Origin: Sulfuricystis multivorans
GTDB taxonomy: Bacteria; Pseudomonadota; Gammaproteobacteria; Burkholderiales; Rhodocyclaceae
DNA length: 64,000 nt
NCBI RefSeq assembly: GCF_003966565.1
Contig: NZ_AP018718.1
Span: forward strand, 1,860,001-1,924,000
Direction: 5' to 3'
Position numbers and translations under genes: made by a program. This document shows positions 6,382 to 58,698 of this stretch, in pieces. The notes under the pieces were generated by a model. The model was not told the origin of the DNA, did no database searches, and saw only the letters and a list, made by a program, of their open reading frames with translations. Positions within the stretch are counted from its first letter, which is position 1, and each line of letters begins with the position of its first letter.

Positions 6382-6407
6382 GGAAAGTCGGCGCTGGAGG
6401 AGCGGCA
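6382..6407 (+). repeat. Dispersed GGCGCTGG repeat, copy 1
   Basis: GAAAGTCGGCGCTGG followed by AGGAGCGGCA, in the norB-norE gap. It is one of about ten related copies in this window; the alignment is given under findings. Confidence 0.7.
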
Positions 6408-6428
6408 CCGGCTTTCCGCGGTTCATCG

Positions 6429-7811
6429 TCAGGCGGCGGCTTTTCCCTCGCCTGGGATGAAGAAGCTCCAGATATAGACCAAAAGACCAATCAGGAAGAT
6501 CACGCCGGTCCACTCGCGCATCCAGTAGAACAGGCTGACGTTTTCCTGGGCTACCATGAAGGGCAACGGACTGTCGGAGACGCGCTGCAGCCAGACTTGC
6601 AGGATGCCGGCGGCGGTGAGGAACAGCGTGATGAACACGATCGAGATCGTCATCAGCCAGAAACCCCACATCTCGGCGACCTGCGAGCGGTTCGAGTTGG
6701 CGGCGCGGCCGCGCAGGATCGGCATCGCGTAGCTGATCATCGTGATGTTGGCCATCACGTAGGCGCCATAGAAAGCCATGTGACCATGCGCCGCGGTGAT
6801 CTGCGTGCCATGCGTGTAGTAGTTCACCGGCGAAAGAGTATGCAGGAAGCCCCACACGCCCGCGCCGAGGAAGGCCATCACGCCGGTGCCCAGCGCCCAC
6901 AATGTGGCCGCCTTGTTCGGATGCTCGCGACGACGACGGTTGACCATGTTGAAGGCGAACAGGGTCATCGCGAAGAACGGGATCGGCTCCAAAGCAGAGA
7001 AGATCGAGCCGATCAGCTGCCAGTATTCCGGCGTGCCGATCCAGTAGTAGTGGTGGCCGGTGCCGAGGATGCCAGTGACCAGCGTCAGCGTGATGATCAC
7101 ATACAGCCACTTCTCGATCACTTCACGGTCGACACCCGTCACCTTGATCAGCACGAAGGCGAGAATCGAGCCGAGGATCAGCTCCCAGACGCCTTCCACC
7201 CACAGGTGCACGACCCACCACCAGTAGAACTTGTCGCGCACGACGTTGTGAGGGTTCACGAACGAGAACAGGAACAGCACCGCCAGACCCCACAGGCCGA
7301 TCAGCAGCACGGTGTTGACCGCGGTCTTGCGGCCCTTGAGCACCGTCATCGTCAGGTTGAACAGAAAGGCCAGCGCGACGACGACGATGCCCAGCTTGGT
7401 GATCGTCGGCTGTTCGAGGAACTCGCGGCCCATCGTCGGCAAGAGATCGTTGCCGGTCATCGCCGCCAGCCGCGCATAAGGCACGGTCAGATAGCCGACC
7501 ACGGTCAGGCCCGCGGCGACGAGGAAGATCCAGAACATCGCCAGCGCCAGCTTCGGGCTGTAGAGCTCGGTTTCCGATTCCTCTGGAATCAGATAGTAGG
7601 CAGCCCCCATGAAGCCCATCAACAGCCAGACGATCAGCGCGTTGGTATGCACCATGCGCGCGACGTTGAAGGGAATGTAGGGAAACAAGAAGTCGCCGAC
7701 GACATACTGCAGGCCCATGATCAGGCCGAACAGGATCTGCGCGACGAACAGCGCGATGGCCGCGATGAAATACGGCTTCGCGACGGCTTGGGATTGATAT
7801 TGCATATTCAT
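6429..7811 (-). CDS. norB: Nitric oxide reductase subunit B
   Basis: Catalytic subunit of the cytochrome c-dependent NO reductase, which reduces two NO to N2O at a heme b3/FeB site in the inner membrane. The 460-aa product has about 12 helices and the expected ligand histidines in [24 protein letters not shown] and [10 protein letters not shown]. The two glutamates of EGVWE are typical of cNor. It lacks the quinol-oxidising N-terminal extension of qNor, in agreement with the separate norC. An ATG two codons in (7805) has better spacing from the AGGAG, so the true start may be there. The norC stop is 19 bp upstream. Confidence 0.96.
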
Positions 7812-7830
7812 TCTCCTCGTCGTTGGCCGG

Positions 7831-8265
7831 TCAGCCCTGGATGTTGGGCGGCCACTTGGCGGTGTTGATCTCGGACACGTACTTCAGGAACGCGGCGATC
7901 TCGTCGAGTTGCTGATCCGTGAAGTTGAACTGCGGCATGCTGCGCCGTCCCGGAACGCCTTCGGGCGGTCGGCTCTTGATGAACGCCTTGACCGCCTCTT
8001 CGCTGCCCAAACGCTTGACGACATTGCCCAGCTCGGGTGCGAAATAGGCGCCTTCGCCGAGCAGCGTGTGGCAGCCGATGCAGTTGTTGGTCTCCCAGAT
8101 CTTCTTGCCGGCGACGACCTTCGCATCCGCGAGCATTTCGCGCTTGTCGCGTGCTGGAATGCTCTGCTCGGTCTGATAGGTCAGCGCCAGGAACACCAGC
8201 AGGAAGAACAGCGTCCCGCCGTAGAAGATGTTCCGGGCAGTCGAGGTAGTGAATGCTTCGCTCAT
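7831..8265 (-). CDS. norC: Nitric oxide reductase subunit C
   Basis: Membrane-anchored cytochrome c subunit that feeds electrons to NorB. The 144-aa product has one helix (about 12-30) and a periplasmic heme domain with CIGCH at residues 62-66. It is the first gene of norCBEF. The ATG at 8265 follows an AAGGGGG ribosome site. The operon is preceded by an FNR-type box and a leader hairpin. The usual norQ and norD genes, needed to activate NorCB in many denitrifiers, are not nearby. Confidence 0.96.
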
Positions 8266-8285
8266 ATGGGCCCCCTTGTGTATTT

Positions 8286-56468: not shown

Positions 56469-56735
56469 ATGGTTCACGACCGACGCCTTTGGGCGAAAAC
56501 GATTTTCTGGGGCGCCGTGACCGCCCTGCTCTACACGTTGCTGTTCATCGAATCCGATCGGGTGATCGAGCTTTCGCGCACCGCGCGCGAGCATCCTTGG
56601 CAGGTACTGGTACCGATCGCGATCGCCTTTGCCATTTCCTTCACGCATGGCGCCTTCACGGGCCTGTTTTGGGAGGTCATGGGCCTCAAAGCGGCGCCGA
56701 AGAGTAAGGCGCCCCAGACGGCAGGACAGGAGTGA
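56469..56735 (+). CDS. Small two-helix membrane protein
   Basis: An 88-aa protein with two predicted membrane helices (about 10-27 and 48-70). The second holds FAISFTHGAFTGLFWEVMG. The C-terminus is soluble and charged. GGGAGG precedes the ATG. It lies 3 bp upstream of the TSUP permease gene and is surely co-transcribed with it. No family name can be given; an accessory role for the permease is inferred from position. Confidence 0.8.
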   Translation: MVHDRRLWAKTIFWGAVTALLYTLLFIESDRVIELSRTAREHPWQVLVPIAIAFAISFTHGAFTGLFWEVMGLKAAPKSKAPQTAGQE

Positions 56736-56738
56736 GCG

Positions 56739-58667
56739 ATGGAACAGCTCCAATTCATCGAACTGAACGCCGCGACGGTATTCCTGCTCGTCTTGATCGG
56801 CTTCATCGGCGGCATGGTCTCCGGCTTCATCGGCTCCGGCGGCGCCTTCGTGCTGACGCCGGCGATGATGTCGCTCGGCGCGCCGGCGATGGTGGCGGTG
56901 GCCTCGAACATCTGTCACAAGTTCCCGAAAGCCTTGGTCGGCGCAGTCAAGCGCCACAAATACGGGCAGGTCGATGTCAAGCTCGGCGTGATCCTCGGCG
57001 TCTTCGCCGAAGCCGGCATGCTCAGTGGCAAGCACGTGATGACCACGATCAAGCAGCACTTCGGCACCGCCGGCACGAACCTGTATGTTTCGGCGGTGTT
57101 CATCGTCGTGCTGGCGATCGTCGGTGGCTATGTGTTGCGCGATTACCGACGCCTCAAACGGCTCGACGAGAAAGGCGAGCTCCCGATCAGCGAGACGCCG
57201 AAGCTCGCCCGCTGGGTGCAGTCGGTGCGCATTCCCGGCACGATGATCTATTTTCCGAGCGCCCAGGCCGAGCTATCACTCCTGTTCGTGATCCCGATCG
57301 GATTCTTGACCGGCATGCTGGCCGCGACGATCGCCGTCGGTGGCTTCATCGGCGTGCCGGCGATGATCTATCTGCTCGGTGTGCCGGCCTTGATGGCCTC
57401 GGCCACCGAGCTCGTGACTGCCTTCGTGATGGGGCTGGGCGGCGCGATCTTCTACGGCCTCGAAGGCGCGGTCGATGTACGCCTGTCGATGCTGATCCTG
57501 CTCGGCTCGTTGTTCGGCATCCAGCTCGGCGCGATCGGCACCACCTACGTCAAGGACTATCAGGTCAAGCGCGTGATGGCGGTGATCATGCTCACGGTGC
57601 TGTTTTCACGCTTTTTCTACCTGCCCGGCTATCTCTCCGAGCTTTCCCTGATCGAGACGCTCTCCCATGAGACGGTCGGCACGTTGAAGACGCTCGGCGA
57701 TTCGGTGCTCGCGGTGGCGCTGATCCTTGGCGCGGTCAGCGTGCTCACTTCGCTGACCCGTGGCATCGCCGAGCATCGCAAGCTCGAAATGCAGCGCGAG
57801 CTCGAAGCCAGCCTCGCCCGCCTGGCCCCCGCCGCCAAACCGATCGAACCGGCGGCGCGGATCGGCCGCATCCTGATCGCCCATGATGGCTCCGAATACA
57901 GCCAAGGCGCGCTCGTCACCGCCGATCGGCTGGCACAGGCGCTCGACGCGGAACTACTGGTCGTCTCGGTCGCCGTGGTCAATCCGGAATACGCCACCGC
58001 AGTGCCGGAGCTGCGCGCCACAGCCCTCGAGCGGGCCGAAGCCGCGGCGCGCGCCGGACGGGAACGAGCCGGCGCCGCCCAACGCAGCCAGCTCGTCGTC
58101 GAAGCCGAGGATCCTTATCGCGGTATCGTCGAGGCGGCCGAAGAAGCGCGCGCCGACCTGATCGCGATCGGCCGGCGCGGCAAACGGGGGCTGGCGCGCG
58201 ACCTGATCGGCGATGCCACCGCCAAGGTGATCGGCCATGCCAGCTGTCCGGTGCTGGTCTGCCCGCGCAGCGCAGATCTTGGCAGCGGCCCGCTGCTCGC
58301 GGCCACCGACGGCTCGCGTCATGGCGATGCGGCGGCCTGGTATGCCGGCAAGCTCGCCCAACGGCTCGGGCGCGGACTGATCGTCGTCTCCGCGGTATTG
58401 CCCGACCAAACCGATGCACGCCGGCGCGAGGCGGTCGCTGCCGTCGAGCGCGCCGAGACCGCTTTCAAGGACGCTTTGCCGCTGCTCAAAGGCATCGTCG
58501 CCAGTGGCAGGGCGCATGAGGCCATCCTCGAAGCGATGCGCCAGCACGAGGCAGCACTCGTCGTCATCGGCAGCCACGGCCGCACCGGTCTCGAGCGGCT
58601 ACTGTTGGGTTCGGTGGCGGAGCGGGTGATCGGTTTGGCGGATCGGCCGGTATTGGTCGTGCGGTGA
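56739..58667 (+). CDS. TSUP (TauE/SafE) permease fused to two USP domains
   Basis: A 642-aa protein. The N-terminal 360 residues are a TauE/SafE-type sulfite/organosulfonate exporter, with about nine helices and the motif GGMVSGFIGSGGAFVLTPAMMSLG. Two UspA domains follow (about 375-500 and 505-642). The second has the ATP-binding motif GSHGRTGLERLLLGS; in the first the last position is GD instead of GS. The fusion suggests that transport responds to adenine nucleotides or stress. AGGAG precedes the ATG. The family exports C1-C2 sulfonates, sulfite or sulfur anions. Confidence 0.92.
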   Translation: MEQLQFIELNAATVFLLVLIGFIGGMVSGFIGSGGAFVLTPAMMSLGAPAMVAVASNICHKFPKALVGAVKRHKYGQVDVKLGVILGVFAEAGMLSGKHVMTTIKQHFGTAGTNLYVSAVFIVVLAIVGGYVLRDYRRLKRLDEKGELPISETPKLARWVQSVRIPGTMIYFPSAQAELSLLFVIPIGFLTGMLAATIAVGGFIGVPAMIYLLGVPALMASATELVTAFVMGLGGAIFYGLEGAVDVRLSMLILLGSLFGIQLGAIGTTYVKDYQVKRVMAVIMLTVLFSRFFYLPGYLSELSLIETLSHETVGTLKTLGDSVLAVALILGAVSVLTSLTRGIAEHRKLEMQRELEASLARLAPAAKPIEPAARIGRILIAHDGSEYSQGALVTADRLAQALDAELLVVSVAVVNPEYATAVPELRATALERAEAAARAGRERAGAAQRSQLVVEAEDPYRGIVEAAEEARADLIAIGRRGKRGLARDLIGDATAKVIGHASCPVLVCPRSADLGSGPLLAATDGSRHGDAAAWYAGKLAQRLGRGLIVVSAVLPDQTDARRREAVAAVERAETAFKDALPLLKGIVASGRAHEAILEAMRQHEAALVVIGSHGRTGLERLLLGSVAERVIGLADRPVLVVR

Positions 58668-58673
58668 AGCCAG

Positions 58674-58698
58674 TGCCGTCTCGCCAGCGCCGAGTTTC
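58674..58698 (-). repeat. Dispersed GGCGCTGG repeat, copy 10
   Basis: On the minus strand, GAAACTCGGCGCTGG then CGAGACGGCA. It lies 7 bp after the TSUP-USP stop, in the gap before the response regulator gene. Confidence 0.7.

Follow-up and report, generated by a model that had tools for sequence, protein, structure and literature searches.

What is a 24-bp sequence doing a dozen times in 64 kb of a bacterial genome, within genes as well as between them? The question is raised by the window analyzed here, a stretch of 64,000 nucleotides from Sulfuricystis multivorans (contig NZ_AP018718.1, positions 1,860,001 to 1,924,000). An earlier note on this DNA had pointed to a dispersed repeat, which it took for either a small mobile element able to settle in genes or a genome-wide signal for DNA uptake or segregation. 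From the distribution and evolution of the repeat we propose that it quite probably is a DNA uptake sequence, i.e., a self-DNA tag for natural transformation.

The window contains 12 complete copies of a tripartite motif, AAANTCGGCGCTGGCRRGACGGCA (Table 1). The aligned copies begin with AAA and one free base; the core TCGGCGCTGG comes next, and a soft spacer (C, R, R, mostly G) separates it from ACGGCA. The core occurs 12 times in the window, compared with a mean of 0.79 and a maximum of 4 in 100 dinucleotide shuffles; two of these occurrences, at 29222 and 55530, stand alone and are probably due to chance. The ten sites listed in the earlier note all belong to the set and, as it had stated, nine have the exact core and one (24813) a variant; it had also correctly set aside 29222 as a core-only match, without A-tract and CGGCA block. 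The list had missed the full copy at 46006-46029 (-) and the TCGGCGCAGG copy at 4259-4282 (+). It had placed five copies in or near gaps and five in genes, and both kinds of location hold, with counts that now stand at four and eight by simple gene calls. Outside motif positions 0-23, sequence logos (42 exact sites; 78 sites with at most three mismatches) show flanks at or near background, and the base directly after the motif is C in 63% of the 78 sites. Across this 78-site set, conservation per position is 83-96% in the A-tract, 87-100% in the core and 96-99% in the CGGCA block.

The copies belong to a set that extends over the entire genome (G000; 2.81 Mb in three contigs). Exact matches to TCGGCGCTGGNNNNNCGGCA number 253, and the reversed motif pattern, which served as the control, has none. 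Allowing up to three mismatches, there are 501 copies (240 + 261 by strand), about one per 5.6 kb, against two for the reversed pattern. This set is well bounded, since counts beyond three mismatches come near those of the control: in a 464-kb sample, comprising the window, 19 stretches of the main contig C1 and one stretch of C2, the classes with 0, 1, 2 and 3 mismatches hold 21, 34, 18 and 5 sites (reversed control, 1), followed by 15 versus 3 at four mismatches and 33 versus 26 at five. Word counts that presupposed no motif likewise place pieces of it at or near the top in G000 and in the related genomes G016, G004 and G187, though not in G005.

Could the repeats simply reflect the proteins that they encode? 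Genes were called with a simple codon-usage caller made for this analysis, and the 429 genes called in the 464-kb sample (413.7 kb) carry 55 copies, whereas 20 synonymous-codon shuffles retained 4-13 (mean 9.05). As the proteins are kept in these shuffles and relatives often differ in sequence at the same place, frequently lacking the motif at equal length, protein constraint is ruled out. The refuting conditions named in the earlier note, a codon-preserving shuffle and protein constraint, leave the motif standing. Among the copies in genes, 22 of the 55 are read in sense frame 0 (AAA NTC GGC GCT GGN NNN ACG GCA, K-x-G-A-G-x-T-A) and 17 in antisense frame 2; none of the 55 uses sense frame 1, as expected if the motif is merely tolerated by proteins. 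Gaps are enriched, with 23 of the 78 copies in the sample compared with 11% noncoding sequence.

To learn how copies come and go, 94 motif sites were taken from 11 genomes of the own genus, and their flanks, 160 bp on either side, were aligned to the other genomes. The resulting 205 ortholog pairs, which are not independent where they share a site, comprise 117 that keep the motif (at most three mismatches to the general pattern), 22 intermediate cases and 66 that lack it (25 distinct sites). Among the 66 motif-lacking pairs, the length change is zero in 41 and between -12 and +4 in 20; the remaining ones show -15 in three cases, -22 in one and +140 in one. Five of the 66 are misclassed, all at site 15537, where the copy of the relative is shifted by a nearby indel (these include the -22 and both -12 cases). 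No change of -24 to -27 bp, the mark of an empty site, occurs among the 66 alignments. They indicate that copies arise by substitution or allelic replacement, without insertion.

This leaves little room for a small mobile or palindromic repeat inserting into genes and gaps, of the type of rickettsial palindromic elements (RPE), repetitive extragenic palindromic sequences (REP) or miniature inverted-repeat transposable elements (MITE), which was the first suggestion of the earlier note. Like those elements, the motif is dispersed over both strands, in gaps as well as in genes and their tails, and its copy number differs strongly between species. Unlike them, it leaves no empty sites where syntenic loci lack it and has no similarity beyond its 24 bp; moreover, orthologous copies differ by dialect (see below) and most gene copies vanish on synonymous shuffling. 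We therefore regard such an element as exceedingly improbable.

Existing copies are kept. In the alignment of the window to G017, its closest relative, the fixed motif positions at the 12 window sites are 93% identical (152/163), compared with 78-83% in the near flanks and 88% over the whole alignment, which covers 41.9 of the 64 kb; the motif is thus maintained while its surroundings change. In the same comparison, the soft positions of shared copies (position 3 and spacer positions 14-17) are 49% identical (20/41), below the near flanks, albeit in small numbers; across a wider set of 76 alignments, spacer identity is not below that of the flanks.

Among the genomes sampled, the motif is abundant only in part of one bacterial family. 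We searched 297 genomes of the family with the pattern AAANTCGGCGCTGGNNNNNCGGYV and found tens to hundreds of copies in most members of genus g1 (the own genus), g2, g70 and g88, as well as in g9 and g62, each represented by one genome. All remaining genomes have 0-10 copies, mostly none, and the reversed pattern occurs once each in two genomes. An order-wide search of 399 genomes found rich genomes only in the own family and 0-4 copies in other families. Motif-rich genomes thus come from six genera or more, all within a family that is probably Rhodocyclaceae, as the two best named AlaS matches are metagenome-assembled genomes (MAGs) with the labels Rhodocyclaceae and Zoogloea. Two of 80 named AlaS loci (L035 and L055) have copies at up to two mismatches, and L055, from a MAG labelled Sulfuritalea sp., carries an alaS gene 87% identical to that of G314 (genus g2). 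Two members of motif-rich genera are nearly empty: G005 (g1) has no match in the family search and a single weak copy in a sample of 119 kb; G277 (g2) has four matches, with none in a sample of 40 kb. Word counts over the 119 kb reveal no alternative dialect in G005. These two genomes have either lost the motif or never gained it. In the motif-poor genomes G123, G097, G337 and G384, some of the few copies are clustered (in G123, five of six lie within 41 kb), possibly as islands from motif-rich donors.

Within the clade the 3′ block is spelled differently between species, and the sampled genomes use ACGGCA, ACGGCG, ACGGTG or GCGGCG. The ending CGGCA predominates in G000 (71/77), G017 (17/18), G003 (7/7) and G013 (4/4), CGGCG in G009 (11/13), G019 (8/9) and G079 (14/15), and CGGTG in G004 (25/31, as ACGGTG); G016 has the GCGGCG form, with G at position 18 in all 41 copies and a CG ending in 37 of them. 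Spelling is mixed in the small samples from G001 (n = 9) and G006 (n = 5). G011 must be mixed as well, since its four sampled copies all end in CGGCA, yet only 270 of 398 copies of all spellings do so genome-wide. At shared sites, each genome mostly has its own spelling (76 alignments of orthologous sites at which both genomes have the motif), and identity at fixed positions reaches 96%, a value that stems partly from the selection of the pairs. Judging from these alignments, dialects are switched in place at shared sites.

The motif is also present in viral DNA. Exact copies occur in at least 120 stretches of viral contigs in IMG/VR (at least two contigs are represented twice), whereas a reversed-type pattern, with Y as the first letter where the exact reversal has R, is found in two stretches of one contig. 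Across 120 viral loci (1.12 Mb) there are 199 copies at up to three mismatches, against five for the reversed control; 135 of the 199 are spelled ACGGCG, and beyond the copy for which each locus was fetched there is about one further copy per 14 kb. These contigs probably represent phages of the clade. One of them, an IMG/VR contig with phage-tail-like open reading frames, contains 4.7 tandem units of 316 bp (L286:629-2123) with TAAC...GTTAGGC ends and five motif copies inside, which look like an integron cassette array. By eye, L256, L267, L292, L329, L332 and other viral loci combine differing left flanks with a common right flank, joined exactly at the motif, as if it were a recombination joint between phages.

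A strand bias relative to replication, which the earlier note had suggested looking for, is not found: 41 copies are leading and 37 lagging among the 78 sites, and 80 versus 86 among 166 exact sites (coarse GC skew places the origin near 0 and the terminus near 1.3 Mb). Polarity of the type of Chi or of FtsK-orienting polar sequences (KOPS) is thereby ruled out. A Chi-like site steering a recombination nuclease might otherwise have been considered, because some copies contain GCTGGTGG, the string GCTGG is common to both, and GCTGG(C/T)GG of the motif is close to the E. coli Chi octamer; the density of about one site per 5.6 kb is similar to that of Chi, and viral contigs carry the motif too. 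About 8 bp suffice for a Chi site, whereas here 24 bp are involved, of which the A-tract and CGGCA block are about as fixed as the core, and dialects of the 3′ block do not fit. Together with the lack of strand polarity, this makes a Chi-like function highly improbable in our view. Spacing between copies is near random (coefficient of variation, CV, 0.96). Same-strand pairs of a full copy and a partial or second copy, 54 or 108 bp apart, were seen at C1:775522/775630 and C1:828488/828542 of G000 and at L178:13810/13864.

The two small contigs of the genome are almost free of the motif. C2 (149 kb, GC 55%) has no copy and C3 (103 kb, GC 58%) one weak copy, compared with about 44 expected for the 252 kb together (P ~5e-18). 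A self-recognition mark for DNA-based defence or restriction, by which untagged DNA is attacked or tagged DNA spared, would account for a self-specific tag with dialects, for this near absence and perhaps for tagged viral contigs. Against it, the small contigs lack the tag although they belong to the same genome, and at a density of one copy per 5.6 kb many fragments would go unprotected. We also know of no defence system whose tag is non-palindromic and 24 bp long, although no search aimed at one was made. A defence mark seems very unlikely.

The main alternative is a chromosomal site for a cytoplasmic DNA-binding protein, kept by selection for nucleoid organisation, segregation or domain marking. 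The long, specific three-block consensus resembles a protein footprint, and the motif is nearly confined to the main contig, where it is found throughout and on both strands at positions often conserved between close species. Several other features do not suit such a site, namely the carriage by at least 120 viral stretches, the absence of a replication-strand orientation combined with near-random spacing, dialects that change genome-wide within one genus, and copies whose presence varies between congeners up to the nearly motif-free G005. We consider this explanation rather unlikely.

We instead favor an uptake sequence, given that accumulation by substitution or allelic replacement, strong conservation at permissive sites, dialects and tagged phages are jointly the hallmark of such sequences (PMC3630211; PMC2397512; PMC12616744). 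Phages of Pasteurellaceae are known to accumulate uptake signal sequences (USS) (PMC6776037), and carriage by phages is accordingly expected of a tag of this kind. Of the genome-wide signals raised in the earlier note, segregation or uptake, it is the latter that agrees with the 501 copies, a clade with dialects, viral contigs, the absence of replication polarity and the near absence from small contigs. We infer receptor binding, biased uptake and biased recombination as the parts of such a system. Within the competence machinery, a putative surface receptor, in all likelihood a minor pilin of the type IV pilus, would bind AAANTCGGCGCTGGCRRGACGGCA in free DNA; fragments bearing the motif would be taken up more often, enter via ComEC and recombine into the chromosome. 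Alleles with a better copy would be transferred preferentially, and permissive sites on either strand would thereby gather copies with no need for transposition. A drift in receptor specificity, followed by the whole genome, could then give rise to species dialects.

Genes for such machinery are present. The genome encodes ComEC (C1:1480924-1482690) and has 15 matches to the pilin-type N-methylation signal. A minor pilin (G000:C1:1721386-1721691) matches PF16732 (ComP_DUS in Pfam; 44 bits) and lies beside a GspH/FimT-type pilin. Since competence genes are found equally in motif-poor relatives, they show capability and not specificity.

Several observations weigh against an uptake sequence. ComEC occurs in 41 of 42 genomes, rich and poor alike, and is missing in the motif-bearing G018 (83% complete); ComP_DUS pilins are found in 40 of the 42, again both motif-rich and motif-poor; an orphan pilin, present in 37 of 40 genomes, is absent only from three motif-poor ones; and G005 and G277, motif-free or nearly so, retain ComEC and pilin genes. 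Exact copies are uneven by strand (106 versus 147; 240 versus 261 in the wider set), and 166 exact sites show no inverted-pair, terminator-like arrangement (smallest spacing, 182 bp). The GC content of C2 and C3, 55-58% versus 63%, may explain part of their depletion. The number of copies, about 500, is lower than the 943 to 5,918 per genome given for the DNA uptake sequence (DUS) of Neisseriaceae (PMC3630211). Finally, several of the same patterns could also come from a DNA-binding protein with sites throughout the chromosome.

As markers of a motif receptor, ComP_DUS pilins, ComEC and the orphan pilin were rejected, as none tells motif-rich and motif-poor genomes apart. In G005 (48%) and G277 (46%) the orphan pilin is among the more diverged ones, but it is about as diverged in rich genomes (G026, 45%; G006, 50%; G314, 51%), which makes the divergence in G005 and G277 only a lead.

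How does the motif compare with known tags? Like the copies described here, DUS, whose receptor is ComP, number in the hundreds to thousands per chromosome, occupy permissive sites, are conserved within diverged flanks and stand opposite unrelated sequence in relatives (PMC2397512), and their dialects differ in a few letters around a conserved core (PMC3630211). DUS are continuous sequences of 10-12 bp with a CTG core, whereas the present motif is tripartite, about twice as long and found in another family; DUS often form inverted pairs, whereas no close ones were seen here among the 166 exact sites. The USS of Pasteurellaceae is discontinuous like the motif, with a core and outer blocks (up to ~32 bp) and with dialects (PMC12616744), and the accumulation of USS in phages (PMC6776037) may have its counterpart in the viral contigs. 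Its core, AAGTGCGGT or ACAAGCGGT, is unrelated to the motif and is followed downstream by AT-rich blocks, whereas here an A-tract lies upstream and the downstream block is CGG(C/T)(A/G). The motif thus has no relation in sequence to either DUS or USS, and it exceeds DUS in length. According to a 2025 paper (PMC12616744), such motifs are used by Neisseriaceae and Pasteurellaceae only, and a literature search returned no uptake motif for Rhodocyclaceae among the matches listed, mostly by title, from open-licence papers. We thus think it likely that this is a third independently evolved uptake system, in a betaproteobacterial clade (probably Rhodocyclaceae, including the Sulfuritalea-labelled MAG), with at least four dialects within one genus and viral carriage.

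If so, its dialects would form barriers that limit gene exchange among environmental species of close relationship, and the occurrence of a tag for a third time, with an unrelated motif, would mean that the tagging of self-DNA evolves repeatedly. Among Betaproteobacteria it would be the second system whose motif, and presumably whose receptor, changed within one genus. Comparison of the systems could then test what determines the length of a motif, how one dialect gives way to another and whether molecular drive or selection spreads the tags. In metagenomes, the motif could serve as a simple sequence marker linking phages and transferred islands to the clade.

Table 1. Copies of the 24-bp motif and core-only matches in the 64-kb window, with the state of the site in relatives.
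Position	Strand	Feature	Location	Relatives
4259-4282	+	copy, one core mismatch (TCGGCGCAGG)	in gene, antisense	orthologous copy in G017; degenerate in G003; lacking in G004
6384-6407	+	copy	intergenic gap	degenerate orthologue in G003; longer insert in G017
8363-8386	-	copy	at stop codon of alaS (alanyl-tRNA synthetase)	orthologous copy in G003
15537-15560	+	copy	in gene near 3′ end, sense frame 2	orthologues spelled otherwise in G017, G003, G016, G001, G009
19173-19196	-	copy	in NAD(P) transhydrogenase subunit beta gene, sense frame 0	present in G003, G017, G006, G001; absent in G016, G009, G005; degenerate in G013, G002; absent and degenerate orthologues all within 3 bp of equal length
24813-24836	-	copy, core variant TCGGCGCTGA	in gene, sense frame 0	TCGGCGCTGG in G017 orthologue
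27871-27894	-	copy, 0 mismatches	in gene, sense frame 0	conserved in G017
33863-33886	-	copy, 0 mismatches	in gene, sense frame 0	one core base changed in G017
39380-39403	+	copy	intergenic gap	degenerate orthologue in G017
46006-46029	-	copy	in gene, antisense	one A-tract base changed in G017
55863-55886	+	copy	near gene end, antisense	conserved in G017
58674-58697	-	copy, 0 mismatches	intergenic gap	identical 24-mer in G017
29222-29231	+	core-only match, without A-tract and CGGCA block; not a copy		
55530-55539	-	core-only match, without A-tract and CGGCA block; not a copy		

Two further repeats were encountered. Just 3′ of a gene matching glycolate oxidase subunit GlcF, the window contains about 4-5 head-to-tail units of 24 bp (ACCCGCACATCGGGCGGGCACAAG; 23056-23175). 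On C3, an apparently ordinary array of clustered regularly interspaced short palindromic repeats (CRISPR) repeats GTTGTAATCCCCTCTAAGAGGGGACAAAGCTCCAGC every 66-67 bp (G000:C3:1-800 and ~52315-52381; L407, L409).

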